Source: Arthrobacter sp. Br18 (lineage in GTDB: Bacteria > Actinomycetota > Actinomycetes > Actinomycetales > Micrococcaceae). Taken from it: a stretch of 38,929 nt of DNA. The stretch spans positions 59,765 to 98,693 of the forward strand of contig NZ_KI914857.1 of NCBI RefSeq assembly GCF_000520555.1, in the 5' to 3' direction. A program made the position numbers and the translations under genes. Below the pieces are notes generated by a model, which was not told where the DNA came from, made no database searches, and saw only the letters and a program-made list of their open reading frames with translations. Position 1 is the first letter of the stretch, and each line of letters starts with the position of its first letter. Below, in pieces: positions 10,209 to 36,369 of the stretch.

Positions 10209-11237
10209 CTACTGCTCGGGGAAGGGCTCGATGAGTGCCGGCTGGGCGAAGGCGGCGTCGAAGGGGGTGTCCGATGGTGCGAAGTTGAACTGCTTGAGGA
10301 AGGCCAGCGCCTCGGGAGCCCCCCGCAGGCGGTCCATCCCCGCATCCTCCCACTCGACAGAGATCGGGCCGTCATAGCCGATGGCCGTGAGTGCGCGGAA
10401 ACTGTCCTCCCAGGGCACGTCGCCCCGCCCGGTCGAGACGAAATCCCAGCCACGGCGCGGGTCACCCCACGGCAGGTGGGAGGAGAGGATGCCGTTCCGG
10501 CCGCCACCCATCCGCATCTTCGTGTCCTTGCAGTCCACATGGTAGATGCGGTCCGCGAAGTCGGAAATAAATGCGACCGGATCGATCTGCTGCCACAGGA
10601 AGTGGCTGGGATCCCAGTTCAGGCCGAACGCCGGGCGATGCCCCACCGCGTCGAGGGCGCGCTGGGTGGACCAGTAGTCGTACGCGATCTCGGAGGGATG
10701 CACCTCGTGGGCGAACCGGACCCCGCACTCGTCGAACACATCGAGGATGGGATTCCAGCGGTCCGCGAAGTCCTGGTAGCCGGCGTCGATCCTGCTCGCG
10801 GGGACGGGCGGGAACATGGCGACATACTGCCAGATGGCCGACCCGGTGAAACCGACGACGGTTCGAACGCCCAGCTTCTGCGCCAGGCGCGCCGTCAGCT
10901 TCATTTCCTCCGCGGCCCGTCCGCGGACACCCTCGGGATCGCCGTCGCCCCATACTTTCGGTCCCACGATGGCCTCGTGCCGGAAATCGATGGGGTCATC
11001 GCACACCGCCTGGCCCGTGAGATGGTTCGAGATGGCCCACACCTTCAGGCGATTGCGCTCCAGGATGTCGAGGCGGTTCTGGATGTAGGCGTCGTCGTCC
11101 CACCGCCACGCATCGAGGTGATCGCCGGACACCGCGATTTCGAGGCCGTCATAACCCCACTGCCCGGCAAGCTCGGCGACCTTCTCGAACGGGAGATCGG
11201 CCCACTGGCCGGTGAACAGGGTGTAGTTGCGGGTCAT
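10209..11237 (-). CDS. Sugar isomerase/epimerase-type TIM-barrel protein (1 of 3)
   Basis: A 342-residue xylose-isomerase-like TIM barrel. Divalent-metal ligands of the family are visible as Glu in FAHEVHPSE, Asp in LNWDPSHF, His in IYHVDCKD and Glu in ISVEWED. It ends with an extension ending FPEQ. Its ATG overlaps the stop of the oxidoreductase gene by 4 bases (11234-11237). It is the last gene of the nine-gene sugar operon. Members of this broad family isomerise, epimerise, dehydrate or beta-eliminate sugars and keto-sugars; the reaction here is not known. The frame is open far upstream, but that stretch is a shadow of the oxidoreductase gene. Confidence 0.85.
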   Translation of the reverse strand: MTRNYTLFTGQWADLPFEKVAELAGQWGYDGLEIAVSGDHLDAWRWDDDAYIQNRLDILERNRLKVWAISNHLTGQAVCDDPIDFRHEAIVGPKVWGDGDPEGVRGRAAEEMKLTARLAQKLGVRTVVGFTGSAIWQYVAMFPPVPASRIDAGYQDFADRWNPILDVFDECGVRFAHEVHPSEIAYDYWSTQRALDAVGHRPAFGLNWDPSHFLWQQIDPVAFISDFADRIYHVDCKDTKMRMGGGRNGILSSHLPWGDPRRGWDFVSTGRGDVPWEDSFRALTAIGYDGPISVEWEDAGMDRLRGAPEALAFLKQFNFAPSDTPFDAAFAQPALIEPFPEQ

Positions 11238-12379
11238 GATTTTCCTTTTCGTCCGGAAAGCGTCGATGCGGTGGGGTCCCAGGCCTCGTCCAGCAGTGGA
11301 GCTGCTTCCGCCGGGCTCGTCACCGGGACGAAGGCCGCCGTGTCGATCGACTCCGAAATGGCCGCCAGAACATCGAGTACATGGAAGGCTGTGAGGCCCT
11401 GGGCGCGGTGGGGAACCCCGGCCCGGATGGCGCGGGCCATCTCCAGGACTCCGACACCCCGTCCGGAGGTCGCACCGACGGCTTCCACGGTTTCGTCCTC
11501 CTGGGAACCCGCACGCCGCACCCGAAGGGCGCCGTCGAACCGATTGGGGTCCGGGAAGGACAGTGTGGCCTCGGTCCCGGTGATCTCGAGGAAGCTCTGG
11601 CGGACCAACGGGGATTCGAAGCTGAAGACACTCTGACCCGATTGTCCTCCGGAGAACTGGAGGAGGGCGCCCACATGCGTGGGAACCGTCACCTCGAACT
11701 CCTCGCCGGTCCGGGGCCCCGAACCGATCACGCGGGTTGCGCTGGATGTCGAACCGACCGCAGCCACCCGGCTGATCGGCCCGAAGGCCTGGAGAAGCGC
11801 CGTGAGGTAGTAGGGCCCCATGTCGAACAGCGGGCCGGCCCCCTCCTGGAAGAGGAAGGCCGGGCTGGGGTGCCAGGCCTCCGGGCCGGGGCTCTGCATC
11901 AAGGTGAGGGCGGTGAGCGGCGTGCCGATGTCGCCCCGTGCGATCATCCGTAGTCCTGTCTGCAGGCCGGCACCCAGGAAGGTGTCGGGCGCGCACCCGA
12001 GCCGCACCCCGGCGTCGTCGGCCGCCTGCAGCAGTTTCCGCCCGCCGGCGCGGTCCAGCGCAAAAGGTTTCTCGGACCAGACGTGCTTCCCTGCTGCCAC
12101 GGCGGCAAGCCCCACCTCGACGTGGGCGGCAGGCGGAGTCAGGTTGACGAGAATCTCCACGTCCGGGTGGTTCAGCGCCGCAGCGATGCTCCCGGACTCC
12201 GCTATCCCGTACTGCGCGGCCCGGGCCTTCGCGGCGTCCTCCACGAGGTCCGCGACGACGTGGACCGTGACGTCGGGGAAAGCGGCGAAACTCGTCAGGT
12301 ACTGCTCGCTGATGACCCCGGCTCCGATGATGCCGATGCCCACGGGCCCGCTTCCGCGCGTCCCTGCGCCGTGTCTCAC
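11234..12379 (-). CDS. Gfo/Idh/MocA-family oxidoreductase (1 of 2)
   Basis: A 381-residue NAD(P)-dependent sugar dehydrogenase-like protein. The Rossmann motif GIIGAGVISEQYL is at about 17-29, the conserved EKPFA with Lys104 follows, and then DMGPYYL with Asp186. The position four residues after that Asp, His in many active dehydrogenases, is Tyr190 here, as in a recognised DMGPYY subgroup. The GTG start overlaps the stop of the upstream TIM-barrel gene (GTGA, 12376-12379), and its end overlaps the downstream one. The role is probably oxidation or reduction of a ring hydroxyl/keto group of the sugar taken up by the operon's transporter. Substrate and direction are unknown. Confidence 0.88.
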   Translation of the reverse strand: MRHGAGTRGSGPVGIGIIGAGVISEQYLTSFAAFPDVTVHVVADLVEDAAKARAAQYGIAESGSIAAALNHPDVEILVNLTPPAAHVEVGLAAVAAGKHVWSEKPFALDRAGGRKLLQAADDAGVRLGCAPDTFLGAGLQTGLRMIARGDIGTPLTALTLMQSPGPEAWHPSPAFLFQEGAGPLFDMGPYYLTALLQAFGPISRVAAVGSTSSATRVIGSGPRTGEEFEVTVPTHVGALLQFSGGQSGQSVFSFESPLVRQSFLEITGTEATLSFPDPNRFDGALRVRRAGSQEDETVEAVGATSGRGVGVLEMARAIRAGVPHRAQGLTAFHVLDVLAAISESIDTAAFVPVTSPAEAAPLLDEAWDPTASTLSGRKGKS

Positions 12380-13122
12380 GCGTCGTACCGGGTGAGGTAG
12401 GTGTAGCTGTCCTCGAGCGCGGTGAAGAGGTTCCCCGAACTGTCGTCGAGTTCCACCACGAAGGTCTCGACCGCCGCGGCGGCGGCCAGCACGGCCGGGA
12501 TGTCCATCCGCCCCGACCCCACCGCGACCTGCGCCCGATTGTCGCGGGAGACGTCGCCGTCCTTGACGTGGATGAGCTTCACACGGTCACCGAGCTTCCG
12601 GAGGAGATCTGCCGGCGATTGTCCGCCGACGGCGACCCAGTAGGTGTCGACCTCGAGGACCACCTCCGGCGAAAGATGGCTGCCCAGCACCTCCAGTCCG
12701 GTCCTGCCGCCGAAGTCGGTTTCCACCTCGAACCAGTGGTTGTGGTAGCCGACGCGGAGGTCGTAGGAGGAAGCGGCGTCGGCAGCCGAATTCAGTGCAT
12801 CGGCGGTGACCTTGATGTCGTCCTCGGTAGTCCAGCGGGCAGGATCGACGAAGGGGTCGATCACCGTGGCCATGCCGAGGGTGCGCGCCGCCTCGAAGAT
12901 CGGGGCCTGCTCCGAGGACAGCAGCGAAGCGTGGCCCGAGGGCGCGCTGAGGCCGTTGCGGCCGAGGGCGGAGGCCAGCTCGGCCGCCCGGGAGGTGAAG
13001 CCGTACGGTTCCACCGAGGTGAAGCCGATCGCGGCGATGCGATCGATCGCGGTGTCGAGATCGGCCTTGATGGCATCCCGGACGGAGTAGAGCTGGACTG
13101 AAAGTGAGGTGCGGTTGGGCAC
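12376..13122 (-). CDS. Sugar isomerase/epimerase-type TIM-barrel protein (2 of 3)
   Basis: A compact 248-residue TIM barrel starting SLSVQLYSVRDAI, a typical opening of the YcjR/3-keto-sugar-processing subgroup. Likely metal or acid-base residues sit in VGYHNHWFEVE, VLEVDTYW, LIHVKDGD and FVVELDDS. GTG 13122 is chosen because AGGAG lies 6 bases upstream and the first beta-strand starts right after it; the frame stays open to 13203 without a comparable site. Lies 43 bases after the second oxidoreductase gene and is coupled by overlap to the first one. Enzymes of this shape act on 3-keto-glycosides as lyases, hydratases or epimerases in described pathways; that role is an inference here. Confidence 0.85.
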   Translation of the reverse strand: MPNRTSLSVQLYSVRDAIKADLDTAIDRIAAIGFTSVEPYGFTSRAAELASALGRNGLSAPSGHASLLSSEQAPIFEAARTLGMATVIDPFVDPARWTTEDDIKVTADALNSAADAASSYDLRVGYHNHWFEVETDFGGRTGLEVLGSHLSPEVVLEVDTYWVAVGGQSPADLLRKLGDRVKLIHVKDGDVSRDNRAQVAVGSGRMDIPAVLAAAAAVETFVVELDDSSGNLFTALEDSYTYLTRYDA

Positions 13123-13165
13123 AAAATCTCCTGGAAGTTCTCGGGGTTGGAACAGGTCGGCTGCA

Positions 13166-14356
13166 TCAGGTGATTCGAACGACGGCGCTTCCCGCCCGCG
13201 CACTGTCTTCCAGGGCTGCGAGCACCCGCTGCACGTCCCGACCGGCCTCGAAGGACGGCTGCGGGGCGGTACTGGACGCGATCCCGGTGAGGAAGTCCGC
13301 GGCCTGGGTGGTGAACGTGTGGTCCCAGCCGAGGGTGTGGCCCGTGGGCCACCAGGCGGAGAGATAGGGGTGCGTCTCCTCGGTCACCAGGATCCTGCTG
13401 GAGCCCTGCACATCGCCCGGTGCGGTGGAATCGAAGTACTGCAGCTCGTTCAAACGCTCGAGGTCGAAACGCAGGGAGCCAAGCGACCCGTACACCTCGA
13501 TCTGCAGGGCATTCCGCCGTCCGGTGGCGAAGCGGGACACCTCGAGGCTCGCGATCGCTCCGGAGGCGAGGTGGAGGGTAGCCCAGGCGGCGTCGTCGAC
13601 GGTGACGGGCTCCATGCCGTCCGCGCCCATCCGCTCGGGGACGAAGGTGTTCACTGTCCCGGAGATGGCGGTCACCGTGCTGCCGAGAAGGAACTGGATC
13701 TGATCGACGGCGTGGGAGGCCAGATCACCGAGTGCGCCGGACCCCGCTGTCTCCCGGCGCAGTCGCCAGCTCATCGGTGCATTCTCGTCCGCAAGCCAGT
13801 CCTGCAGGTAGCTGACGCGGACCTGGCGCACCTCGCCCAGCCGGCCCGCGGCCAGCAGGTCCCGTGCCAGTGCCAGTGCCGGCAGCCGCCGGTAGTTGAA
13901 GCCCACCATCGACTGCACTCCCCTGGCCCGCGCCGCGACGGCCGCCGCCACCATCGTGTCGGCCTCCGCGACGGAGTTCGCCAACGGTTTCTCGACGAGG
14001 ACATGCTTGCCCGCCTCGAGGGCCGCCACCGCCAGTTCGGCGTGGAGGTGCCCGGGCGTACAGATGTCCACGATGTCGATATCGTCGCGCTCGAGTACTG
14101 CTCGCCAGTCCGTCGCGGTGTCGGCCCACCCGAGCCGCTGCGCTGCCGGAACGAGCTGGTGAGCATCGCGTCCCACGAGCAGCCGCTGCTCGACGCGGGG
14201 CGAATCATAGAAGGCGTTGACGTTCCGCCAGGCATTCGAGTGCGCCCGGCCCATGAACGAATAGCCGACGACGGCGACTCCGAGCGTTCGCGGCGGAGAG
14301 GCTGGAACCGAAGCAGGGCTGAAAGCCGCCGCGTGGCCGGGGGAAGAGGTGGTCAT
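13166..14356 (-). CDS. Gfo/Idh/MocA-family sugar dehydrogenase (2 of 2)
   Basis: A 396-residue NAD(P)-dependent oxidoreductase with an extra Ala/Pro/Ser-rich tail of about 22 residues before the Rossmann motif (VAVVGYSFMGRAHS). The catalytic pattern is complete: EKPLA with Lys123, then GDLASH with Asp211 and His215 spaced as in active dehydrogenases of this family. FNYRRLPA and YLQDWLAD also match what I recall of levoglucosan dehydrogenase-type enzymes, which oxidise C3 of a sugar; this is a family resemblance, not an alignment. The ATG overlaps the stop of the upstream TIM-barrel gene by 4 bases (14353-14356). Best candidate for the first oxidation step of the operon. Confidence 0.88.
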   Translation of the reverse strand: MTTSSPGHAAAFSPASVPASPPRTLGVAVVGYSFMGRAHSNAWRNVNAFYDSPRVEQRLLVGRDAHQLVPAAQRLGWADTATDWRAVLERDDIDIVDICTPGHLHAELAVAALEAGKHVLVEKPLANSVAEADTMVAAAVAARARGVQSMVGFNYRRLPALALARDLLAAGRLGEVRQVRVSYLQDWLADENAPMSWRLRRETAGSGALGDLASHAVDQIQFLLGSTVTAISGTVNTFVPERMGADGMEPVTVDDAAWATLHLASGAIASLEVSRFATGRRNALQIEVYGSLGSLRFDLERLNELQYFDSTAPGDVQGSSRILVTEETHPYLSAWWPTGHTLGWDHTFTTQAADFLTGIASSTAPQPSFEAGRDVQRVLAALEDSARAGSAVVRIT

Positions 14357-15231
14357 AGGGAGTTTCCTTCATCGAGGCCTGCCGAAGCGCTCCGCAGGAA
14401 CGCGAGCCCGTCCTCGGCAAGCCGGTCCTGGGTTACCGCCAGCGGACGCCAGATCGACGCCGCCGTGGCAATGCTTGCGTTGGTGGAGGTAAAACTTTCG
14501 ATATTCAGTGCGCCGGAATAGCCCACGTCGTCGAGCGCCGGAAAGATCTGCTGCCAGTTGGTCGAGTCCCCGCCCGGGGCGCCGCGGTCGTTCCCGCACA
14601 CCTGCACGTGGACCAGATGGCGGCCTGCCCGCCGGATGGCGTCCGCGGACGAGCGTTCCTCGATGTTCAGGTGATAGGTATCGAGCGCCAGTCCTACGCC
14701 GCTGCCCAGGAGTGGGCCCAGGGCGCCAAGTGCCTGCTCGACGGTGTTCAGCAGTGACGTCTCGTAGCGGTTGAGGGGTTCGATTCCCAGCACGACGCCG
14801 CTCTCCAGTGCCTGCGCGGCCAACGGCTCGAGGTTCTTTCGAAGCTCCGCGTAGGCGCGCTCGCGCTCGCCGTCGTCCATCCGCCACAGTCGGCCGGTGG
14901 CCGAGTAGAACGGACCGCACACGGCGGGAGCGCCGATGTCGGACGCAAGCTCGATGCACGAGCCGAGGTACTGCTGGGTGGCTTCGATGGTTCCGGCGTC
15001 GGCGGCGACAAGGTCCCGTCCGGGAGCCATGGCGCCTACGACGTAGGGGATGAGGCCCGTCGCGGCGAGTGCGTCCTGCACTGCCGGGGCAGAGAGGTCA
15101 CCGGCGTTCTCCAGTGGAAGTTCCACCGCGTCGAAGCCCATGCGGGCAATCTTCGTGAGGAGGGGAAGCAGGCCGGAGTCCGTGAGGGGTGATTCCCACA
15201 CCCAGGTGTTGATGCCGATTGCCCGTTCCAC
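14353..15231 (-). CDS. Tagatose/allulose 3-epimerase-like TIM-barrel protein (3 of 3)
   Basis: A 292-residue TIM barrel resembling D-tagatose/D-allulose 3-epimerases. The four metal ligands can be placed: Glu in GIEPLNRYE, Asp in LALDTYHLN, His in LVHVQVCGND and Glu in LNIESF. The NDRGAPG segment matches the substrate loop of that family. GTG start at 15231, preceded by GAAGGAAGG. It follows the binding-protein gene by 45 bases and overlaps the dehydrogenase gene downstream. It could interconvert C3 epimers or process a keto-sugar; the substrate is not known. Confidence 0.85.
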   Translation of the reverse strand: MERAIGINTWVWESPLTDSGLLPLLTKIARMGFDAVELPLENAGDLSAPAVQDALAATGLIPYVVGAMAPGRDLVAADAGTIEATQQYLGSCIELASDIGAPAVCGPFYSATGRLWRMDDGERERAYAELRKNLEPLAAQALESGVVLGIEPLNRYETSLLNTVEQALGALGPLLGSGVGLALDTYHLNIEERSSADAIRRAGRHLVHVQVCGNDRGAPGGDSTNWQQIFPALDDVGYSGALNIESFTSTNASIATAASIWRPLAVTQDRLAEDGLAFLRSASAGLDEGNSL

Positions 15232-15276
15232 GGCCTGCTTCCCTTCCTTCTCGTTGGTGCCTGTTCTTGCGCTGCC

Positions 15277-16506
15277 CTAGGGGATCTGGCGTTCCTGCCA
15301 CACGGTGGGGTAACCCGGCAGGTCCTCGCCGCCGAACTTGGCGTAGTGCCCGTCCGGCATGCCCTCATTGGCCTCGAGGAACTCGCCGCGGTCCTCCTCC
15401 GTGATGGGCGACTGGGGCAGAACCCACTCAGCGGGCACTTCCTCGCCCGCGAAGATCTTCTCGAGGGCCAGGAGCGGGGTGCGCCACTGGAAGTTCGAGT
15501 AGACGGGGGCCATGGCGTCAAGACCGGTCTCCTCCCACTTGCGCAGGAAGCTCAACTCGTCCTCGCCGGTCATGACGGGCAGATCGGCGCCCGCGTCCTC
15601 GAAGGCCTCGATGGCTGCGACAGCGCCGTCGCCGGCGTCCATCCATACTCCCTGCACATCACCGGTGGCCAGTTCGTCCGCGATGATCTTCTTGATTTCG
15701 GTGGGATCTGCGCCGGTGAAGTAGTCGACGGCCTCGATGCCGTTCTCCTCGAAGAGCCGCTCCGCAGCGGCCCATCGCTGCTCGAGGACATCGACGCCGG
15801 GCAGAATGCGCAGGGCAACCACCTTGTCGCCCTCCTGGAGCTTCCCGGACAGGAATTCCGCGGTGTCGATGCCCCACGCGAAGCCACCGATGGGGTGGAT
15901 GAAGGAGGTGGCGCAGTCGGTCTCCACGCCGCGGTCGAAGACGACCACGGGCTTGCCCGTCTCACACGCACGCTCGACCGCGGGAGTCAGCGCCGCCGTG
16001 GAGTTCGGGGAGATGATGAAGGCGTCGCAGTTTCCCTCGCTGATGAAGTAGTCGATGTCGGAGATCTGGGTGTTGTCGTCGTCCTGCGCGTCGCGGGTCT
16101 CCATCTCGGACACGACGCCGGAGTCCTGCAGCGCCTTGAGCTGCTCGTTCATGGTGATCCAGCCGGTCTGCCGCCAGGGATTCGAGATCGAAGCATTGGC
16201 GAAGCACACCTTCTTCGCCCCCTCCGAGGCGAAGGCCGCGGTGTCGGTCATGTCGCCCGCGAGATATTGCAGGTGCGGCTGTGCCGGATCTCCCTCGAAC
16301 GTGGCCGAGCGCTGCTCGTCCTGCGTATCGTAGACGGCCTGGTCGAACCACTCGTCGGTGCTCTCCGCCGGCGCCGCTTCGGTCGCGGCCGGCTCGGCCT
16401 CCGCCGATGGTGGATCCTCGATCGATGAGTCGGTGGTGCAAGCCGTCAGTGCCAACAGCGACGTCGCTGCAATAACCGTGAGCCGGGTGAGTACTTCCCT
16501 GTGCAT
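15277..16506 (-). CDS. CUT2 sugar ABC transporter substrate-binding lipoprotein
   Basis: A 409-residue periplasmic-binding-protein (RbsB-like fold) with a lipoprotein signal ending LLALTAC, Cys23 lipidated, followed by an Ala/Glu/Pro/Ser-rich linker to about residue 50. The ligand-binding lobes include KKVCFANASISNPWRQTGW and AFIISPNSTAALTPAVERAC, in line with CUT2 binding proteins. AGGAAGGA lies 6 bases before the ATG. The frame stays open well upstream, but that part overlaps the permease gene. Together with the two permeases and the double ATPase it forms a complete importer; the ligand is unknown, probably a monosaccharide, glycoside or anhydrosugar. Confidence 0.88.
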   Translation of the reverse strand: MHREVLTRLTVIAATSLLALTACTTDSSIEDPPSAEAEPAATEAAPAESTDEWFDQAVYDTQDEQRSATFEGDPAQPHLQYLAGDMTDTAAFASEGAKKVCFANASISNPWRQTGWITMNEQLKALQDSGVVSEMETRDAQDDDNTQISDIDYFISEGNCDAFIISPNSTAALTPAVERACETGKPVVVFDRGVETDCATSFIHPIGGFAWGIDTAEFLSGKLQEGDKVVALRILPGVDVLEQRWAAAERLFEENGIEAVDYFTGADPTEIKKIIADELATGDVQGVWMDAGDGAVAAIEAFEDAGADLPVMTGEDELSFLRKWEETGLDAMAPVYSNFQWRTPLLALEKIFAGEEVPAEWVLPQSPITEEDRGEFLEANEGMPDGHYAKFGGEDLPGYPTVWQERQIP

Positions 16507-16559
16507 GGTGTTCCTTCCTGAGAGTGCCCTTGCGGGCGTGATCCTTGTTGGGTAACGCC

Positions 16560-17651
16560 TCAACCGGCGGTACCGGGTTGCGGAGGTGGAACCTGGGACG
16601 CCGCCGGGGGAGCCCCGCGCCGCTTGCGCTGCCACGTCTGGGCCGCGACCGCCACGGCGACGATGATGATCAGTCCCTGGACCGAGTCGCGCCACGTCGA
16701 CTGCACGCCGAGGAAATTGAGCAGCGTGAACAGCAGTTCGAGGGAAAAGGCGCCGGCCGCTGCCGAGAGCACCCAGCCGCGGCCTCCACCGAGGACGACG
16801 CCGCCCAGCACGACGGCGGTGATCGCCGTGAATTCGTAGCCGCGGCCCACTGACGGGTGGACGCCCGCGTACCCGACGAGGATGATCCCGGCTGCTGTCG
16901 CGGCAAGCGACGACAGCATGAACGCCCGGGTCTTCACCCACCACACCGGAGTTCCGGCGAGAGCCGCCGCACGGGGATTGTCACCAGCGGCGAGCAGTGT
17001 GCGGCCGAAGGGACGGCGCATCAGCCAGAAGGCGGCGCCCGCGACCACCACCAGGATGATGAGGGGGTAGGGAATCACCTCGACCACCGGGACATCGGGG
17101 ATGCCGCCGCGCCCGATCTGCCGGAAGCTGTCCGCCGGGTTGCCGGTGGCGGCGCCGCCCGTCCAGTACATGACCAGGCCCAGCAGGGCGAGCATGGTCC
17201 CGAGCGTCACGATGAAGCTCGGGACACCCAGCAGGGTCGTCACGCAGCCATTGAGGAACCCCACGAAAGCTCCGAAGACCAGCATCAGCAGCAGGACCGG
17301 GATGGCCCTGCTCTCATCCTGCCCGATCAGGTTCCCGGCGATGATCACCTGCGCCGTGACGACCGATCCCATGGACAGATCGAACTCGCCCGAGGCGATC
17401 ACAAAATACTGCCCGATGGCGGCGATGGCGATGGGAGCGGTGCGCCCCAGGAAACGGATCAGGGAACCGGGCTCCCCGAAGGACGGGTTCGCTGCGATGA
17501 CGGCGGCCAGGAGCGCGAGGAGCAGGACGAATACGGCTCCGCCGGGAGTGCGGAGGAACCTCAGGAGGCGTTCGCCCCGGGAGGACCGGTTCCGGGACAG
17601 GGGCTGCCGGGTGCTCCCGGATTCCGCCCGGGCCGTCGGATGAGCGCTCAT
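16560..17651 (-). CDS. CUT2 sugar ABC transporter permease (RbsC-like, 1 of 2)
   Basis: A 363-residue membrane protein of the BPD_transp_2 family with eight to ten helices, a basic cytoplasmic N terminus (about 1-33) and a Pro-rich C-terminal tail. Family signatures include IASGEFDLSMGSVVT (about 85-99) and AGDNPRAAALAGTPV. The ATG overlaps the stop of the other permease gene by 4 bases (17648-17651). Two different permeases suggest a heterodimeric channel. The binding-protein gene follows after 53 bases. Confidence 0.88.
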   Translation of the reverse strand: MSAHPTARAESGSTRQPLSRNRSSRGERLLRFLRTPGGAVFVLLLALLAAVIAANPSFGEPGSLIRFLGRTAPIAIAAIGQYFVIASGEFDLSMGSVVTAQVIIAGNLIGQDESRAIPVLLLMLVFGAFVGFLNGCVTTLLGVPSFIVTLGTMLALLGLVMYWTGGAATGNPADSFRQIGRGGIPDVPVVEVIPYPLIILVVVAGAAFWLMRRPFGRTLLAAGDNPRAAALAGTPVWWVKTRAFMLSSLAATAAGIILVGYAGVHPSVGRGYEFTAITAVVLGGVVLGGGRGWVLSAAAGAFSLELLFTLLNFLGVQSTWRDSVQGLIIIVAVAVAAQTWQRKRRGAPPAASQVPPPQPGTAG

Positions 17652-18697
17652 GCCGTCACCCCGGTGTCCTTCTGGATACGCTCCGGCCGGGTGTCGGGAG
17701 GGCCGGCCGGTCCGGTGGTGTCAGAGAATCTCGCCGGGCGGCCCAACGTCCTGCGGCGGGCATAGACGGCGACCGCGGCGACGATGACGACGCCGCGCAC
17801 CACGTCCTTGAGAAAGGGATTGATCTGCAGGACGCTCATGATGTTGTCCATCATCGCGAAGATCAGCACCCCGCCCAGCGTTCCGACCAGCGACCCTTTT
17901 CCACCGGCGAGCAGGGTCCCGCCGAGGACCACCGCCGCGATGGACAGCAGGTCATAGCCGCCCTGCGATCCGATGGTGGGGCTGCCCACCCCGAGGCGCG
18001 CCGCAAGCAGGAGCCCGGCGAGCCCCGCCAGGACGGAGCACAGCACGTGTGCGGCGATCACGGGAACTCGCGTCTTGATTCCGGACATCCGGGCGACGGT
18101 GAGGTCGCCTCCGACAGCGAACATGTGGGAACCCAGCCGCGAGCGGTTCAGCAGGAGCAGGACCGCTCCGGCGCAGGCGAGCATGATGAGGGTGGATACC
18201 GGAACGGGTCCGATCCCGGTGGCCCCGATGAGCCGGAATGCCAGCGGAGTCTGGCCGGCGCTCCCCTTGTAGTTGGAGGCAAGGTATCCGCTGATGATCA
18301 GTCCCATGCCGAGGGTCGCTATGAAACCGTGCACCTTGAGGCCGGACACGATCAGTCCGTTGGCAAGGCCGATGGCGGCGGCCAGGGCGAGGGCTGCCAG
18401 CACGCCCGGGAGGATGTTGCCGGTTTCGTTCGCCATGACGGTGGCAGCGACGAGGCTCGACAGGCTGATGACGTAGGGCACCGACAGGTCGAGGCTTCCG
18501 ACCAGGATGACGAGGGTCTGCCCGATCGCGATGAAGCCCAGCACGCTGGTTCCGGTGAGGATGTCCGAGATGTTGCCGGTGCTGAAGAAGTTCCGGCCGG
18601 CGCTGCCCACGAGCACTGCGCCGACGGCGATGGTCACCAGGACCACGGCGTAGACGATGTGGGTCGACGTCAGGGCGGGTGTCTTTCGCGGGCTCAC
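17648..18697 (-). CDS. CUT2 sugar ABC transporter permease (RbsC-like, 2 of 2)
   Basis: A 349-residue permease of the same family, with VGSLDLSVPYVISLS (about 63-77) as the conserved segment and AVGGDLTVARMSGIKT in the cytoplasmic loop. GTG start at 18697 overlaps the ATPase stop (GTGA, 18694-18697), showing translational coupling along the transporter genes. Hydrophobic helices fill nearly the whole length. Confidence 0.88.
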   Translation of the reverse strand: MSPRKTPALTSTHIVYAVVLVTIAVGAVLVGSAGRNFFSTGNISDILTGTSVLGFIAIGQTLVILVGSLDLSVPYVISLSSLVAATVMANETGNILPGVLAALALAAAIGLANGLIVSGLKVHGFIATLGMGLIISGYLASNYKGSAGQTPLAFRLIGATGIGPVPVSTLIMLACAGAVLLLLNRSRLGSHMFAVGGDLTVARMSGIKTRVPVIAAHVLCSVLAGLAGLLLAARLGVGSPTIGSQGGYDLLSIAAVVLGGTLLAGGKGSLVGTLGGVLIFAMMDNIMSVLQINPFLKDVVRGVVIVAAVAVYARRRTLGRPARFSDTTGPAGPPDTRPERIQKDTGVTA

Positions 18698-20220
18698 TGG
18701 GATGCCTCCTGATCGGCTCGGACGCCGGCGGCCAGCGCCAGCACTTCTTCCTCCGTCGACTCCGGTGGGGCAGTGCCGGCGATCCGCCCGTCACGCAGCA
18801 CGAGGATCCGGTCCGCCATGCCGAGGACTTCGGGGATTTCGCTCGACACCATCAGGATCGCGGCGCCGTTCGCGGCGAGGGAGCGCATGAGCTGGTACAC
18901 GGCAAGCTTGGCGCCGACGTCGATCCCGCGGGTGGGTTCGTCAAGCAGCACCACGCGCGGGTTCACGGCGAGCCACTTCGCGAGGACCACCTTCTGCTGG
19001 TTGCCGCCGGAAAGGTACTGGACCTCCTGGCTCAGGTCCCTCGCCCCTACTTCCAGCGAGGAGAACATCGCGGGGATGCCGGCCCGGGCCTTGCGGTTCC
19101 GCGACGGAAAGACCGACCGGACCACGCTGAGTGCATTGTCGAGGATCGACTGGTTCAGGCTGAGCCCCTCGGACTTGCGGTCCTCGGTGATCAGGGCGAT
19201 ACCGCGCCGGACGGCCTCCCGGGGGGATCGGCCCGCGTACCTGACGCCCGAGAGCTCCATAGTGCCGCGGGTGAAGGGCGCGGCGCCGAAGAGGGCCTCG
19301 AGCAGTTCGGTCCGGCCAGACCCCTGCAGGCCCGCGACGCCGACGATCTCGCCGGTCCGGAGGGACAGGTCGATCGAATCGAGCTGGTCGTTGCCGCACT
19401 TCTCGGCCCGCAGTACCACCTCGCCGACGGCGGTGCCCGGTTCGATGTCCGGGAAATAGGCGGAAATGGGTCGTCCCACCATGAGCCGGACGAGTGCGGC
19501 GTCGTCGAGTTCCGACGCAGGGTGGCAACCCACCACCTGCCCGTCCTTCAGCACCGTGATGATGTCGCACAGGTCGAAGATCTCCTTCAGCCGGTGGGAC
19601 ACATAGAGCACTGCGACGCCGCGCGAGGTGAGCCGCCGGATGATCTCGTACAGCAGCTCCACCTCCGGTCCGGCCAGGGCTGCGGTGGGCTCATCCATCG
19701 AGATGATCCGCGCGTCATAGCTGATGGCCTTCGCGATCTCGACGATCTGCTGTTGCGCCACGGACAGCGAGCTCACCGGGCTGCCCGGCCTGATGCTCGA
19801 GACACCGAGTTCGGCGAGGAGTTCCGAGGTTCGCGCCTGCATGGTCCGGGTGTCGGTCAGGATGCCACGGCGCGGCTCCCTGCCGAGGAAGATGTTCTCC
19901 GCCACCGAGCGTTCGGGCAGCAGGTTGAACTCCTGGAACACCGTCGACAGCCCGGCGGCATGCGCCTGGGTGGGGTGGGAGAAATCCACCGCCTGACCGG
20001 CGATCTCGATCGTTCCGGAATCGCGCTGGTGGACACCCGCGAGCAGCTTCATCAGCGTCGATTTTCCTGCGCCGTTCTCCCCGACCAGCCCATGGACCTG
20101 CCCGGGGAACAGCGTGAGGTCGGCGTTGCTCAGCACCGGTACGCCGAAGAAACTCTTCGACAGTCCGGCTGCGCGCAGAACGGCTTCCGAACCGGCGGGG
20201 GAGTCGACGTCGTTATCCAC
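18694..20220 (-). CDS. CUT2 sugar ABC transporter ATP-binding protein (RbsA/MglA-like)
   Basis: A 508-residue protein with two fused nucleotide-binding domains. NBD1: Walker A GENGAGKST (about 43-51), signature LSVAQQQIVEIAKAI, Walker B IISMDEPTAAL. NBD2: degenerate Walker A GLQGSGRTE, usual in this family, signature LSGGNQQKVVLAKW, Walker B VVLLDEPTRGID. The GTG at 20220 gives the usual family length, about 500; no strong Shine-Dalgarno sequence is visible before it, and the open frame continues upstream without support. First gene of the nine-gene operon, 23 bases downstream of the inverted repeat 20243-20274. Confidence 0.88.
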   Translation of the reverse strand: MDNDVDSPAGSEAVLRAAGLSKSFFGVPVLSNADLTLFPGQVHGLVGENGAGKSTLMKLLAGVHQRDSGTIEIAGQAVDFSHPTQAHAAGLSTVFQEFNLLPERSVAENIFLGREPRRGILTDTRTMQARTSELLAELGVSSIRPGSPVSSLSVAQQQIVEIAKAISYDARIISMDEPTAALAGPEVELLYEIIRRLTSRGVAVLYVSHRLKEIFDLCDIITVLKDGQVVGCHPASELDDAALVRLMVGRPISAYFPDIEPGTAVGEVVLRAEKCGNDQLDSIDLSLRTGEIVGVAGLQGSGRTELLEALFGAAPFTRGTMELSGVRYAGRSPREAVRRGIALITEDRKSEGLSLNQSILDNALSVVRSVFPSRNRKARAGIPAMFSSLEVGARDLSQEVQYLSGGNQQKVVLAKWLAVNPRVVLLDEPTRGIDVGAKLAVYQLMRSLAANGAAILMVSSEIPEVLGMADRILVLRDGRIAGTAPPESTEEEVLALAAGVRADQEASQ

Positions 20221-20242
20221 GGGCTCACTGTGACACAACGAA

Positions 20243-20274
20243 GCGACTTTTGTCGATAGAACTACAAAAGTCGC
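20243..20274. promoter_or_regulatory. Probable ROK-regulator operator, 11-bp perfect inverted repeat
   Basis: GCGACTTTTGT (20243-20253) and ACAAAAGTCGC (20264-20274) are perfect inverted copies separated by 10 bases. They stand in the 100-bp gap between the divergent sugar operon (start 20220) and the ROK regulator (start 20321). A/T-rich arms around a roughly 10-base spacer are usual for NagC/Mlc/XylR-type operators. The site is placed to control both directions. Confidence 0.75.
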
Positions 20275-20320
20275 GTGTTGGCGATGGATAGCCGGGTGCC
20301 GGACGTGGTTTACTTCAGGA

Positions 20321-21556
20321 ATGCTGACCACGACGCAGATGCAGGGGGCAGGGGTTACCGCGGTTCCACAGGGGGTACGTGCTGCTCCTCCCGCCCCCGG
20401 TGCGAGCGAGATCTTCCAGTTGCTGCGCGACGGGCAGCCCCGTACCCGCGCCGAACTGGCGCAGCTCACAGGGCTCGCCCGGTCCACCGTGGCGTCGCGC
20501 GTGGACACCCTGATGGAACTCGGATATGTGGCTCCCTATGGAGGCGGCGCTTCCACCGGTGGCCGCCCGCCGTCATTGTTCGCCCTCAACCCGGCCGCGC
20601 GCGTGGTGATCGGCGCTGATCTCGGGGCCACGCACGCGCTGGTCATCCTCTCCGACCTGGCGGGTACCGAGCTCGGCTCCGAGCGGACGGAACTCGACAT
20701 CTCCGAGGGCCCGGAAACCGTCCTCGGCTGGCTGATCGGGGCCGTGTCCCGGCTTCTGGCGGCCGGACAGCGCGACACGGGCGAACTCGCGGCCATCGGC
20801 ATCGGCCTCCCCGGTCCGGTGGAGCACGACACCGGCCGGCCCATCAATCCGCCGATCATGCCCGGCTGGGACAGGTTCGACGTTCCGGCGATGGTGCAGC
20901 GGGCGTACCGCGTTCCCGTGCTCGTGGACAACGACGTGAACATCATGGCCCTGGGGGAACAGAACGCCAACTGGCGTGACACGGGTGACCTGATGTTCAT
21001 CAAGGTGGCAACCGGAATCGGCGCCGGAATCATCTCCGGCGGGACACTGCAGCGCGGCGCCCAGGGCACGGCGGGCGATCTGGGCCATGTCCGGATCCTC
21101 CGCGGCGGCGAGTTGCCGTGCAGGTGTGGGAATACCGGGTGCCTTGAAGCGGTGGCCGGCGGTCCGGCGCTCGCGGCGGCACTCAGTACCGGCACCGGGC
21201 ACCGGCTCTCCTCGGGCAGCGAGGTCATTTCCCTCGTACGCGCCGGTGATGCCGCGGCGATCCAGGTGATCCGCCAGGCGGGGCGCGACATCGGGGACGT
21301 CCTGGCCACCTGCGTGAACCTCATCAACCCGTCGGTCATCGTGGTGGGCGGCATTATGGCCTCGGCCGGGGAACACCTGCTGGCGGGGATCCGCGAAGTG
21401 GTCTACCGGCGGTCGCTTCCCCTGGCGACCGAGCACCTGCGGATCGTCCCCTCGGTGTCGGGTGAACGGGCCGGTGTCTCGGGCGCCGCGGCGATGGCCA
21501 TAGCCCACGTGCTGTCGCCGGAATCGATCGAGGCCGCGACACTGTCGGCTCCGTGA
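20321..21556 (+). CDS. ROK-family transcriptional regulator
   Basis: A 411-residue repressor-type protein. A winged helix lies at about 28-85 (RTRAELAQLTGLARSTVASRVD, then GGRPPSLFALN), followed by the ROK sugar-kinase-like domain with GADLGATHA, GIGLPGPV and the zinc motif CRCGNTGCLE (about 267-276). Divergent from the nine-gene sugar operon and adjacent to the inverted repeat 20243-20274, its likely operator and autoregulatory site. The AGGA before the ATG is only 3 bases away, and TTTACT lies 6 bases before the ATG, so a leaderless transcript is possible. The effector is presumably the sugar or a breakdown product. Confidence 0.9.
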   Translation: MLTTTQMQGAGVTAVPQGVRAAPPAPGASEIFQLLRDGQPRTRAELAQLTGLARSTVASRVDTLMELGYVAPYGGGASTGGRPPSLFALNPAARVVIGADLGATHALVILSDLAGTELGSERTELDISEGPETVLGWLIGAVSRLLAAGQRDTGELAAIGIGLPGPVEHDTGRPINPPIMPGWDRFDVPAMVQRAYRVPVLVDNDVNIMALGEQNANWRDTGDLMFIKVATGIGAGIISGGTLQRGAQGTAGDLGHVRILRGGELPCRCGNTGCLEAVAGGPALAAALSTGTGHRLSSGSEVISLVRAGDAAAIQVIRQAGRDIGDVLATCVNLINPSVIVVGGIMASAGEHLLAGIREVVYRRSLPLATEHLRIVPSVSGERAGVSGAAAMAIAHVLSPESIEAATLSAP

Positions 21557-32477: not shown

Positions 32478-34403
32478 CTACCGCTTCGCCAGTACCGCCG
32501 CGATCCCCGGAATGCAGTCCTCGTTCTGCAGCGAGGTGGTGTCCCCGAGCGTCCCGCCCTCGTACAGCTGCGTCAGCAGGCGGCGCATAATCTTGCCCGA
32601 GCGCGTCTTGGGAACATCGTCCACCACGACGACGGCGGAGGGCCGGGCGACCGCCCCGATCACCGTCGTGACGTGGGCCCGCAGGTCGGCGGCGATGTCC
32701 TGCGAGCGGTCGGCGCCGGGCGCGAGGACGACGAAGGCCGCGATCGCATGCCCCGTGAGCGGATCCGCGACCGGACATACGCCCGCCTCGGTGACGAAGG
32801 GATGCGCCACGAGCGCTGACTCGATCTCGATCGTCGACAGCCGGTGGCCCGACACGTTGATGACGTCGTCGACGCGGCCGAGGATCCAGGTGTCCCCGTC
32901 GTCGTCGTACTTCGCGCCGTCCCCTGCCAGGAACCAGCCCTGCGCCGCGAACTTCCGCCAGTAGGAGTCCAGGTAGCGCTGCGGGTCGCCCCAGACGGTG
33001 CGGGCCATGGCGGGGCCGTGCCGGTCCACCACGATCAGGCCCTGCACGCCGGACGGCACGGGGTCTCCGGCGTCATCGACGATGCGCGTGCTCACCCCGG
33101 GGAGCGCGCGCGAGGCGCAGCCCGGTTTGAAGGATCCGTCCAGCTGGCTGGGCGAGAGCACCGTGGCTCCCGTTTCGGACTGCCACCAGGTGTCCACCAC
33201 GGGCACCGTTCCCCGGCCGAGGTTGGCGCGGAACCAACGCCAGGCCTCGGGGTTCACCGCCTCGCCGACGGTCCCCAGCACGCGGATGCTCGACAAGTCG
33301 TAGTTCCCGGGCACGCCGTCGGGGAACCAGCCCATGAGCGAGCGCACCAGCGTGGGAGCCGTGTAGTAGCTGGTGACGCCGTAGCGCTCGATGACCTCGA
33401 AGTGGCGGCCGGGATGCGGCGTATTCGGCGTCCCCTCGAAGATCACCTGCGTGGCGCCGTTCGAGAGCGGGCCGTAGATCTCATAGGTGTGGGCCGTGAC
33501 CCAGGCGAGGTCGGCCGTGCACCAGTGGACATCGGCGGAGCGCAGCGCCGGGTCGGGATTGCTGAAGAGGTGCTCGAAGCTCCACGAGGCCTGCGTCAGG
33601 TACCCGCCGGAGGTGTGGACCAGGCCCTTCGGCTTCCCGGTGGTGCCCGAGGTGTACATGATGAACAGCGGCGTTTCGGCGTCGAACGCCTCCGCCTCGT
33701 GCTGCGGCGACGCGGCCGCCACGGCGTCATGCCACCAGACGTCGCGCTCCGGTGTCCAGTCGATGTCCGAGCCCGTGCGGCAGATCACGAGCACGTGCTC
33801 GATGGACTCCACGCCGGCCACGGCGGCATCGGCGTTCGCCTTGACGGGTACTGCCTTTCCCCGGCGGTACTGCCCGTCGGTGGTGACGAGCAGCTTCGCC
33901 CCGGTGTCCTCGACCCGGAACCGCAGTGCCTCGGCCGAGAAGCCGCCGAAGACGAGTGAGTGGACGGCTCCGATCCGGGCGCAGGCAAGGGTCACCACCA
34001 CCGTCTCCACCAGGACCGGAAGGTAGATGACCACGCGGTCGCCCTTCCCGACGCCGAGGGCCAGCAGGGCGTTCGCGGCGCGGGCGACCTCCTCCTGCAG
34101 ATCGGAGTAGGTCACGGTGCGCCGGTCGCCGGGCTCGCCTTCGAAGAACAGGGCGGTTGTGCTGCCGTTGCCCGCGGCGACATGCCGGTCCACGCAGTTC
34201 TCGGCGACGTTGAGCTTCCCGCCCGAGAACCATTCGAGAACGGGCACCGACAGCTCGCCGTCCGGCGCCGGACGCGCAGGCTCGAAGGTGTGGGCGGTAT
34301 GCCATTCCTCGGCCCAGTCGAGCCGGCGGGCCTGCTCTTCCCAGAACGCGATGCGCGCGGCTTCGGTGAGTAGGGGATCCTGCTCAGTGACGTTCAGGCC
34401 CAT
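32478..34403 (-). CDS. acsA: Acetyl-CoA synthetase (AMP-forming)
   Basis: A 641-residue acyl-adenylate enzyme activating acetate to acetyl-CoA. The P-loop-like YTSGTTGKPKGLVHTSGG lies near residues 245-262, WVTAHTYEIYGPL and VDTWWQSETG keep the Trp that restricts the pocket to acetate, and TRSGKIMRR near residue 600 carries the catalytic lysine. ATG 34403 starts 10 bases inside the end of the permease gene, so it belongs to the riboswitch-controlled ABC operon; an in-frame ATG at 34418 is possible. It lies directly upstream of the metY transcription unit. Acetate released by MetY may be its physiological substrate. Confidence 0.9.
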   Translation of the reverse strand: MGLNVTEQDPLLTEAARIAFWEEQARRLDWAEEWHTAHTFEPARPAPDGELSVPVLEWFSGGKLNVAENCVDRHVAAGNGSTTALFFEGEPGDRRTVTYSDLQEEVARAANALLALGVGKGDRVVIYLPVLVETVVVTLACARIGAVHSLVFGGFSAEALRFRVEDTGAKLLVTTDGQYRRGKAVPVKANADAAVAGVESIEHVLVICRTGSDIDWTPERDVWWHDAVAAASPQHEAEAFDAETPLFIMYTSGTTGKPKGLVHTSGGYLTQASWSFEHLFSNPDPALRSADVHWCTADLAWVTAHTYEIYGPLSNGATQVIFEGTPNTPHPGRHFEVIERYGVTSYYTAPTLVRSLMGWFPDGVPGNYDLSSIRVLGTVGEAVNPEAWRWFRANLGRGTVPVVDTWWQSETGATVLSPSQLDGSFKPGCASRALPGVSTRIVDDAGDPVPSGVQGLIVVDRHGPAMARTVWGDPQRYLDSYWRKFAAQGWFLAGDGAKYDDDGDTWILGRVDDVINVSGHRLSTIEIESALVAHPFVTEAGVCPVADPLTGHAIAAFVVLAPGADRSQDIAADLRAHVTTVIGAVARPSAVVVVDDVPKTRSGKIMRRLLTQLYEGGTLGDTTSLQNEDCIPGIAAVLAKR

Positions 34404-35251
34404 CGGCGGACGGCCCACCTTTCCGCCAAGCCCAGCAGGGCATCGGTGGTCTTGCCGATGACCGCGAGCAGGATGATCGCCAGGAGGATGCGGTCCACCC
34501 GGCCGTTGTTCTGTGAGTCGATGAGCAGGAACCCGAGGCCCATCGAGGAGGCGATCAGTTCAGCCGCGACGAGGAACAGCCACGACTGCGCCAGGGCGAG
34601 CCGCAGTCCGGAGAAGAGGGCAGGAACGACGGCGGGCAACTGCACCGTGGTCAGCAGCCGGATGCCTTTCAGGCCGAAGGCCCGCCCCGCCTCCACGAGG
34701 TTCCGGTCCACATGGCGCAGTCCGAGGTAGAGCGTGGTGAAGACGGGGAAGAAGGCTCCGATCAGGATGAGCGTGACCTTCGAATCCTCGTTGATGCCGA
34801 TCCACAGGATGAGCAGCGGAACCCACGCGAGCGAGGGCACTGCGCGGATCGCCCCGACCGTGGGAGTCAACAGCAGGTCCGCGATGCGGGAGAGCCCGAG
34901 CAGGGCGCCGAAGACGACGCCCAGCGCTGCACCCGCGAGGAATCCGATAAGGACGCGCTGCGTCGAGATGAGGATGTGGTTGAGAAGTTCGCCACGGTTG
35001 AGAAGCTCGACGGCGGCAGTTCCCACTGCGCGCGGCGACTGCAGTTCGGCAGGACTGAAGTAGCCGGTCTCGGTGCTGATGTGCCACGCCACGAGGAGGG
35101 CCGCCGGGACGATCAGGCCGATCAGGACGGCCGAGAGCCGGTTGACGGCGCGACCGGCCGGCCGGGACGGAGCGGGGGTCCTTCCCGCTTCCGACCCGTC
35201 AGGGCCCTGTTGGTTCACCGGCGTGCTGCCGGTGCCGATCAACCCACTCAT
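34394..35251 (-). CDS. ssuC: Sulfonate/nitrate-type ABC transporter permease
   Basis: A 285-residue SsuC/TauC-type permease with a roughly 30-residue polar N-terminal tail and six membrane helices. The EAA-like loop VEAGRAFGLKGIRLLTTVQLPA is visible in the second half. The ATG overlaps the binding-protein stop by 4 bases (35248-35251). Substrate family by homology: aliphatic sulfonates, taurine or related organosulfur compounds; the SAM riboswitch upstream favours a sulfur source. No monooxygenase (SsuD/TauD) is encoded nearby. Confidence 0.82.
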   Translation of the reverse strand: MSGLIGTGSTPVNQQGPDGSEAGRTPAPSRPAGRAVNRLSAVLIGLIVPAALLVAWHISTETGYFSPAELQSPRAVGTAAVELLNRGELLNHILISTQRVLIGFLAGAALGVVFGALLGLSRIADLLLTPTVGAIRAVPSLAWVPLLILWIGINEDSKVTLILIGAFFPVFTTLYLGLRHVDRNLVEAGRAFGLKGIRLLTTVQLPAVVPALFSGLRLALAQSWLFLVAAELIASSMGLGFLLIDSQNNGRVDRILLAIILLAVIGKTTDALLGLAERWAVRRWA

Positions 35252-36291: not shown

Positions 36292-36369
36292 GGGAATCCT
36301 TTGGAGGTGGCATGCGGGAAGGAGGGATGCCCGGAGGAATGCCGGGGTCGAACGGGAGCTGAGCGCGGG

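Follow-up and report, generated by a model that had tools for sequence, protein, structure and literature searches.

A nine-gene sugar operon of Arthrobacter with a candidate oxidation-elimination pathway and modular relatives in Actinomycetota

A candidate non-hydrolytic sugar pathway

We analysed a stretch of 38,929 nucleotides from Arthrobacter sp. Br18 (contig NZ_KI914857.1, positions 59,765 to 98,693; hereafter the window), which contains a nine-gene operon coding for a CUT2-type ABC importer, two Gfo/Idh/MocA dehydrogenases (GFO1 and GFO2) and three TIM-barrel proteins (TIM1, TIM2 and TIM3). Judging from sequence comparisons, we give an even chance to the proposal that this operon, under the control of a ROK-family regulator, mediates the import of a sugar and its processing by oxidation at C3, elimination, hydration and reduction, with neither hydrolysis nor a kinase. 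We infer each reaction, the place of TIM1, the role of GFO2 as a reductase and the type of substrate from gene content and order, conservation, clade membership and active-site residues.

In the proposed scheme, the transporter would import a glycoside, an anhydrosugar or a similar pyranoside, and GFO1 would oxidize it at C3 with NAD+. TIM1 would epimerize or isomerize the product next to the new ketone (at C2 or C4), bringing a non-gluco substrate into register. TIM2 would then remove the C1 substituent by beta-elimination to give a 2-hydroxy-3-keto-glycal, to which TIM3 would add water, and GFO2, or GFO1 in reverse, would reduce the resulting 3-keto-hexose to the free hexose. The elimination and hydration steps are proposed because the clades of TIM2 and TIM3 have tested members (PMC7676230, PMC10628242).

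The window has a G+C content of about 67% and belongs to a genome of 3.54 Mb. The operon occupies positions 10209-20220 of the minus strand, in the order ATPase, permease 1, permease 2, binding lipoprotein, TIM1, GFO1, TIM2, GFO2 and TIM3, and the ROK gene is divergent from it on the plus strand (Table 1). A preliminary description of this DNA had reported the nine genes with start/stop overlaps at most junctions and no sugar kinase or classical glycosidase. All its open reading frames and domains were confirmed: a domain scan found two Gfo/Idh/MocA proteins, three PF01261 TIM barrels, one Peripla_BP_4 and two BPD_transp_2 proteins, two ABC_tran stretches in the ATPase and an N-terminal HTH in the ROK protein, and none of the nine operon proteins matched a sugar-kinase or glycosidase family. 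Five of the eight junctions are 4-nt stop/start overlaps, and the remaining gaps measure 53, 45 and 43 nt. The frames first described were maximal ones; likelier starts are at 20220 (ATPase), 16506 (binding protein), 13122 (TIM2) and 11237 (TIM3). The operon is not a chance array of genes, since three relatives (L041, L046 and L047) have the identical nine genes in identical order and the dN/dS values relative to L041, the nearest relative with the same operon, are low, at 0.05-0.21 for eight of the nine genes (for permease 1 the comparison covered only 233 codons; GFO2 was omitted, as the aligned stretch overran its natural stop).

TIM2 and TIM3 fall in eliminase and hydratase clades

The best solved relative of TIM2 is 8BVK, deposited as AtOGE (PMC10628242), and TIM2 is 29% identical to AtOGE. 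Eight AtOGE residues have been named for two metal positions and catalysis (PMC10628242), and TIM2 keeps all eight (E39, H66, H132, H134, E161, D163, H189 and E233). In a tree of 47 barrel sequences, with long-branch warnings for YcjR, 7ern and OtnI, TIM2 grouped with AtOGE (support 100/98), and that group with LgdB1 (98/94); the three LgdB1 genes formed a clade separate from TIM2. With its metal site and catalytic His kept, TIM2 is a probable beta-eliminase of the OGE/LgdB1/CGE kind.

In the same tree, TIM3 grouped with the Agrobacterium tumefaciens hydratase 8ro4 (100/98), a 2-hydroxy-3-keto-glucal hydratase that it matches with 126 bits among solved structures; the match to 2zds reaches 531 bits. 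TIM3 is thus a probable 2-hydroxy-3-keto-glycal hydratase. It is also the most conserved of the five enzymes within the genus (89-95%), which would fit a step on a shared intermediate. The Protein Data Bank entry 2zds, filed as a putative DNA-binding protein and presumably from Streptomyces, itself groups within the hydratase clade. Its name is probably wrong, and the clade offers a likely function for this solved protein.

At another locus (L064:13106-15225), an LgdC-like gene overlaps a TIM3 relative (71%) downstream of a levoglucosan dehydrogenase (LGDH) gene. Because of this neighbourhood, TIM3 may be LgdB3, the group without an assigned role in PMC10066097.

The two dehydrogenases differ in active site and clade

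GFO1 has K123, D211 and H215, the same Lys/Asp/His set as LGDH, and GFO2 (in its 381-residue frame) has K104, D186 and Y190, both as first described. In a tree of 46 Gfo/Idh/MocA sequences, with a long-branch warning for YcjS, GFO1 belongs to a clade of 14 sequences with the Kribbella protein 4h3v (94/94). This clade adjoins, but falls outside, the LGDH clade (5 sequences, 100/100, one of them 98% identical to the solved LGDH), with a joint support of 92/76. GFO1 is 38% identical to LGDH and 28% to YcjS, and it scores 314 bits against the LGDH model NF052479, whose cut-off is 650.

GFO2 belongs to a clade of 15 sequences (100/100) that has no characterized member in the tree. The Tyr in place of His is found in 25/25 aligned orthologues, six of 31 having been dropped beforehand because their extended reading overran the stop. 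A Lys/Tyr pair is also a feature of KijD10, a sugar 3-ketoreductase, and of glucose-fructose oxidoreductase; a literature search gave nothing on it. The predicted structure of GFO2 (pLDDT 90) has fold matches to scyllo-inositol/L-glucose dehydrogenase, 1,5-anhydrofructose reductase, LGDH and glucose-fructose oxidoreductase, which indicate the general family and are not decisive. GFO2 is a putative 3-keto-sugar reductase.

A third group of the tree is LgdC-like (11 sequences, 99/97). It includes the Gfo gene of an AtOGE-type operon, the eight dehydrogenases from sister TIM1 operons that were put in the tree, and a gene of locus L061 with E95 and H185 in the LgdC numbering of PMC10066097.

We also searched the genomes of the order with NF052479 at E<=1e-100. 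Matches were found in 111 of 248 genomes, five of which exceed the cut-off; there was none in the genome of strain Br18. All five sub-cut-off loci that we opened (L066-L070) encode a TIM3 protein. Its gene directly adjoins the Gfo gene in four of them, and ~1.4 kb separates the two in L070. By coordinates, a direct GFO1-TIM3 pair is present in three further places (G058 contig 15, G111 and G180). Thus, from the eight places looked at, this pair seems widespread in the order.

TIM1 is an epimerase-clade barrel with an altered metal site

TIM1 grouped with D-allulose 3-epimerase in the barrel tree (97/94), and ketose 3-epimerases are the top fold matches of its predicted structure (pLDDT 83). 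It is 28.6% identical to YcjR, a long branch outside the TIM1 clade. TIM1 keeps E151, E157, D184, H187, R216 and E245 and has a Gln at position 210, invariant in 13/13 aligned sequences including that of the window; the equivalent residue is His in 7ern and YcjR and Gln in Hyi and OtnI. The Glu-Asp-His-Glu metal site of D-tagatose/allulose 3-epimerases is incomplete in TIM1, and the Glu, His and Arg substrate residues are kept. TIM1 looks like an additional epimerization or isomerization step; its reaction and its place in the order of steps are the least secure part of the scheme.

Among named genomes, the best matches of TIM1 are in Arthrobacter sp. B0490 and A. agilis. A haloarchaeal relative (46%) is encoded on plasmid 2 of Halalkalicoccus jeotgali (L187:4800-13550), together with two more TIM barrels, an alcohol dehydrogenase and an ABC importer.

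The operon family is modular

We compared 140 loci, of which 60 are regions of whole genomes and 80 are the best among 585 relatives listed for named genomes; some are duplicated (e.g. L047 = L106). TIM1 proteins with >45% identity are encoded at 103 loci (23 genome regions and the 80 named ones). At six loci little sequence is available on one side of TIM1, and some absences may reflect contig ends. The full four-part importer is present at 98 of the 103 TIM1 loci, the divergent ROK gene at 72, TIM3 at 68, and TIM2 and GFO2 at 12 each. All 68 loci with TIM3 also carry a Gfo gene in the fetched stretch. A GFO1 of at least 50% identity occurs at 31 TIM1 loci and a Gfo match of 28-45% at 54. The 80 named loci alone gave 75 importers, 55 ROK, 30 ThuA, 50 TIM3 and 8 TIM2.

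TIM2 and GFO2 form a pair: wherever TIM2 has at least 38% identity, GFO2 directly follows it (40/40, window included), and no GFO2 adjoins the 37.5% identical TIM2 of L072. Differently arranged TIM1 operons that include the pair are found in Pseudarthrobacter (L105), Microbacterium (L126, L127, L131, L166 and L171) and A. agilis (L102). We also looked at 10 loci where the pair stands alone. The neighbour scanned at L052 is a LacI-type regulator, and those at L057, L075 and L078 look similar by eye; L055 has upstream two permease-like open reading frames and a binding protein that scores 77 bits with the GanS model (cut-off 700). No neighbour pattern was seen at the remaining five.

The site of the window operon, between a phosphoribosyltransferase-like gene and genes for NAD synthase and an exonuclease, is shared by L041, L042, L082, L101 and L106 (Arthrobacter sp. 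260). In L082 and L101 the slot contains importer, TIM1, GFO1 and TIM3 genes, and in L082 the TIM3 gene overlaps the stop of GFO1. The window, L041 and L106 have the TIM2-GFO2 pair as well, located between GFO1 and TIM3. The nine genes also adjoin NAD synthase in L046 and L047. Six further relatives (L044, L045 and L048-L051) keep TIM2, GFO2 and TIM3 (65-69%, 71-72% and 90-91% identity) beside NAD synthase, with another importer (ATPase 42-43%), a first dehydrogenase 54-56% identical to GFO1 and no TIM1. Their first dehydrogenases (those of L044 and L048 in the Gfo tree) form a branch of their own. We read these arrangements as a common back end, TIM2-GFO2-TIM3, with exchangeable front ends. 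That the back end is retained while importer and GFO1 vary would be expected if substrate choice lay with the front end and the back end acted on an intermediate common to all. In L042 (11519-13242), the importer and most of TIM1 are gone and GFO1-TIM2-GFO2-TIM3 adjoin the ROK gene, which resembles a natural deletion.

Large ThuA proteins and fused eliminase barrels in relatives

At 36 of the 103 TIM1 loci, TIM1 is followed in the same orientation by the gene of a ThuA-domain protein of 809-2617 residues, whose start is <400 nt downstream. They include L132:10869-14417, L135:10931-18742, L145:10903-14034, L147:10970-15934, L163:10966-14529 and L165:10983-15332, plus 30 further loci, in Streptomyces, Jiangella, Cellulosimicrobium and others. 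All seven of these proteins that we scanned have ThuA, glucose/sorbosone-dehydrogenase, PKD and CBM6 domains; one adds PF06439 (3-keto-disaccharide hydrolase) and one a PF01261 barrel. PF06439-like sequence is present at eight TIM1 loci. Kinship ignored, ThuA and TIM3 occur together at nine TIM1 loci, ThuA alone at 27, TIM3 alone at 59 and neither at eight. Only one of the 37 fetched region loci without TIM1 has a ThuA protein (L068).

Among the 113 open reading frames of at least 700 residues at the 140 loci, four include a barrel resembling AtOGE (29-30% identity, 69-74 bits; Table 1). In all four, sugar-dehydrogenase, ThuA or PF06439 domains are in the same frame, and CBM6 is a further component of these fusions. 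At the eight AtOGE positions the fused barrels read E H H H Q D H E: E161 is replaced by Gln in 4/4; of the other seven residues, three proteins retain all and the cut L068 protein retains six. We searched 396 genomes of the order with the L069 barrel domain and obtained 46 matches (E<=1e-20); open frames of >800 residues account for 12 and shorter frames for the others. The genome of strain Br18 was searched for ThuA, PF06439 and the fused barrel, and none was found. On visual inspection of N-termini and binding modules, the large fused proteins are probably exported, and their domain content makes it possible that they are one-chain non-hydrolytic glycosidases. Some relatives may thus cleave glycosides outside the cell by this chemistry and import 3-keto-sugars.

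Internal cleavage or uptake of products made outside

Several observations weigh against the complete scheme. TIM1 occurs without TIM2/GFO2 at 91 of the 103 loci and without TIM3 at 35 (a few loci being truncated at contig ends); the five-step scheme therefore does not describe the operon family in general. TIM1 itself is devoid of the metal His of true 3-epimerases. The support for grouping GFO1 with LGDH is moderate, and the barrel tree carries a warning that long branches meet at its deepest split. Since GFO2 has no characterized relative in the tree and a Tyr for His throughout, it could be a second oxidase. For the relatives, the fused AtOGE-like barrels favour extracellular cleavage, and their discovery made us judge internal cleavage slightly weaker and the uptake of ready-made 3-keto-sugars slightly stronger.

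In the latter case, which we regard as rather unlikely for the window, the compounds imported would be 3-keto-hexoses or 2-hydroxy-3-keto-glycals that the organism itself or others had produced outside the cell; TIM1 would epimerize, TIM3 hydrate and a Gfo protein reduce them, with no internal oxidation. The position of the ThuA/sugar-dehydrogenase proteins directly after TIM1, their scarcity at loci without it and the four fused proteins, one of which follows a GFO1-TIM3 pair (L069), argue for it, as does the precedent of Caulobacter crescentus, in which a transporter, two epimerases and a reductase were proposed for 3-ketogalactose (PMC9007349). It better explains operons that have no eliminase or that have large proteins than the operon of the window, whose genome has no such large proteins and which has an LGDH-side GFO1 and an eliminase of its own. 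Moreover, ThuA and TIM3 coincide so rarely that the two forms may differ in role, and the export of the large proteins is a by-eye judgement. The preliminary description had envisaged a glycoside or anhydrosugar as substrate; 3-keto-sugars taken up ready-made are possible as well.

A broader proposal we put forward tentatively, as possible but doubtful. The importer-TIM1 core and the GFO1-TIM3 pair would be the inner half of an actinobacterial waterless cleavage of extracellular glycosides. Its outer half would be the large proteins, with sugar dehydrogenase, binding modules and either an AtOGE-like barrel or a 3-keto-disaccharide hydrolase in a single chain, and the resulting 3-keto-glycals or 3-keto-hexoses would be imported, epimerized by TIM1, hydrated by TIM3 and reduced. 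The lineage of the window would be without this outer half, by loss or from the beginning, and would have acquired TIM2-GFO2 instead to open intact glycosides inside. If so, TIM1 would represent a new type of metal site, Glu-Asp-Gln-Glu, and the open fate of 3-ketogalactose would find a home.

The scheme of internal C3 oxidation and elimination was also weighed against two known types of pathway. Catabolism of levoglucosan or another anhydrosugar of the Lgd type (GFO1 as LgdA, TIM2 as LgdB1, TIM3 as LgdB3 and GFO2 as LgdC) would agree with the GFO1 clade being the nearest to LGDH and with the TIM3 relative beside LGDH and LgdC-like genes in L064. It is improbable, given the score of GFO1 at less than half the curated cut-off and its position outside the LGDH clade, the separate clade of the LgdB1 genes and the Tyr of GFO2 where LgdC has His185; curated cut-off, clade and LgdC His led us to reject membership of the levoglucosan pathway, while a different anhydrosugar is conceivable as the substrate. 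A slim chance is left to a pathway for rare ketoses or inositol (allulose, tagatose, L-glucose or scyllo-inositol) with TIM1 as a plain ketose 3-epimerase and TIM3 resembling inosose dehydratase. The clade of TIM1 would point to it, as would scyllo-inositol/L-glucose dehydrogenase, which both GFO1 and GFO2 have as one of their top matches to solved structures. The curated models are far under their cut-offs, however (IolE 36 and 46 bits against 290, IolG 113 and 64 against 355, psicose epimerase 128 against 300), TIM2 and TIM3 are in eliminase and hydratase clades and TIM1 has no epimerase metal His. We therefore rejected these pathways on curated cut-offs and clades. None of the five operon enzymes reached the NCBIfam equivalog cut-offs for inositol, levoglucosan or ketose enzymes, and the tight clustering with an inositol or sorbose pathway that would have spoken against the first description was not found. 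The 3-keto chemistry that it had proposed is supported by the grouping of TIM2 with AtOGE and of TIM3 with the hydratase, and by the position of GFO1 beside the LGDH clade.

Comparison with known systems

One close parallel is the A. tumefaciens operon for AtOGE, AtHYD and a Gfo enzyme (PMC10628242), which combines C3 oxidation, Mn-dependent beta-elimination, hydration and reduction and to which the window corresponds by the eight AtOGE residues of TIM2 and the AtHYD clade of TIM3. In contrast, its oxidase is the flavoenzyme GlycDH (PMC10628242), whereas that of the window is of the Gfo/Idh/MocA type; no flavin-dependent GlycDH (GMC) was found among the nine operon proteins, the part of the genome searched for it. 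The window adds TIM1, the CUT2 importer and the ROK regulator, and GFO2, with its Tyr for His, does not share a clade with the Gfo gene from the related operon of Xanthomonas. AtOGE-type sets with a GMC oxidoreductase and DUF1080 are present on plasmids of Xanthomonas sacchari (L184:3452-12341) and Paracoccus (L185:6899-11997).

The Lgd pathway (lgdA-lgdB1-lgdB2-lgdC) of Bacillus smithii and Paenarthrobacter shares with the window two Gfo/Idh/MocA enzymes, PF01261 barrels, an ABC importer and, among reported neighbours, ROK-type regulators (PMC7676230, PMC10066097). Unlike it, the window operon has no LGDH equivalog and no LgdB1-clade or LgdC-clade gene, and it has one barrel more. Escherichia coli YcjQRS (annotated in NC_000913 as D-guloside and D-glucoside 3-dehydrogenases and 3-dehydro-D-guloside 4-epimerase) likewise has a PF01261 epimerase for a 3-keto-glycoside beside 3-dehydrogenases, but TIM1 is in the 3-epimerase clade, with 29% identity to YcjR, the identity of GFO1 to YcjS is similarly low, and no eliminase or hydratase is annotated in the E. 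coli locus. In the lactose 3-keto pathway of C. crescentus (LacABC and DUF1080), compared by description only, the neighbours of the lactose 3-dehydrogenase that are important for growth on this sugar comprise a transporter, two epimerases and a reductase, and this importer-epimerase-reductase set was proposed for a 3-keto-hexose; oxidation and hydrolysis take place outside the cytoplasm (PMC9007349), whereas the genome of the window is devoid of PF06439. The suggestion that three barrels set the operon apart holds only in part, as the X. sacchari plasmid locus also has three (the third not close to TIM1) and the C. crescentus set has two epimerases (PMC9007349); TIM1 does look like an extra step.

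The chemistry is thus known, and most of the operon enzymes are of recently described kinds. In the open-access literature, searched mostly by titles and the starts of abstracts, we found no description of the combination of Gfo-type first oxidation, TIM1, TIM2-GFO2, TIM3, CUT2 importer and ROK operator, or of the link with ThuA. Oxidation-elimination cleavage of glycosides is the subject of recent work, mostly on gut bacteria, Proteobacteria and levoglucosan users. Kastner and others are said to have described a conserved non-hydrolytic pathway, a structure of levoglucosan dehydrogenase has reportedly been published, and a 2024 Nature paper reportedly deals with a broad-specificity 3-keto pathway in gut bacteria. 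The operon family would extend this type of cleavage in Actinomycetota, as interchangeable modules with a conserved operator. It brings to light two enzyme clades without known activity (TIM1 and GFO2) and is linked to large dehydrogenase-eliminase fusions, would-be one-chain non-hydrolytic glycosidases.

Importer, regulator and other features of the window

The best curated model for the ATPase is AraG (493 bits, under the cut-off of 689). The binding protein was ruled out as a guide to the substrate, with only 71 bits to its best solved relative, and a scan of genes on either side (for a phosphoribosyltransferase-like protein, an alpha/beta hydrolase, NAD synthase and an exonuclease) gave no clue either. 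Upstream of the ATPase gene is an inverted repeat with the 24-nt core CTTTTG-N12-CAAAAG, which is the probable ROK operator. Allowing one mismatch at fixed spacing, the core is present in 54 of 73 gaps between ROK gene and operon, the window's included, and absent from 19; random 300-nt stretches of the same loci contain it in 34 of 3650 cases, the genomes being related and not independent. The exact core pattern is a single site in the Br18 genome, so that no further regulon genes were linked to it with the exact pattern, the only one searched genome-wide.

Table 1. Coordinates of the operon, its regulatory features and the fused-barrel proteins of relatives (loci other than the window are indicated).
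Feature	Coordinates	Strand	Basis or remark
ROK-family transcriptional regulator (HTH + ROK)	20321..21556	+	PF00480 205 bits, HTH_IclR 33 bits
Inverted repeat, probable ROK operator	20243..20274	no strand	perfect 11-nt arms, 10-nt spacer
CUT2-type sugar ABC ATPase	18694..20220	-	start 20220 or 20238; domain scan
ABC permease 1	17648..18697	-	PF02653
ABC permease 2	16560..17651	-	PF02653
Sugar-binding lipoprotein	15277..16506	-	closest solved chain 4pe6, 71 bits
TIM1, putative epimerase/isomerase of the D-tagatose/allulose 3-epimerase clade, Gln210 for metal-site His	14353..15231	-	tree, alignment
GFO1, NAD(P)-dependent sugar dehydrogenase, LGDH sister clade, probable C3 oxidation	13166..14356	-	tree, residues
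TIM2, probable 3-keto-glycoside beta-eliminase (AtOGE clade)	12376..13122	-	tree, residues
GFO2, Gfo/Idh/MocA oxidoreductase with Lys/Tyr, not Lys/His; putative 3-keto-sugar reductase	11234..12379	-	start 12379 or 12343
TIM3, probable 2-hydroxy-3-keto-glycal hydratase (AtHYD/2zds clade)	10209..11237	-	tree, structure matches
Fused-barrel protein	L096:10409-17509		directly after TIM1
Fused-barrel protein with PF06439	L096:1-3903		
Fused-barrel protein, two barrels	L069:2438-8185		directly after GFO1-TIM3 pair
Fused-barrel protein, cut by stretch end	L068:1-4179		barrel not reported by Pfam

Elsewhere in the window, positions 34394-37185 code for a permease, a binding protein and an ATPase that, by eye, resemble an importer of the sulfonate/nitrate type.

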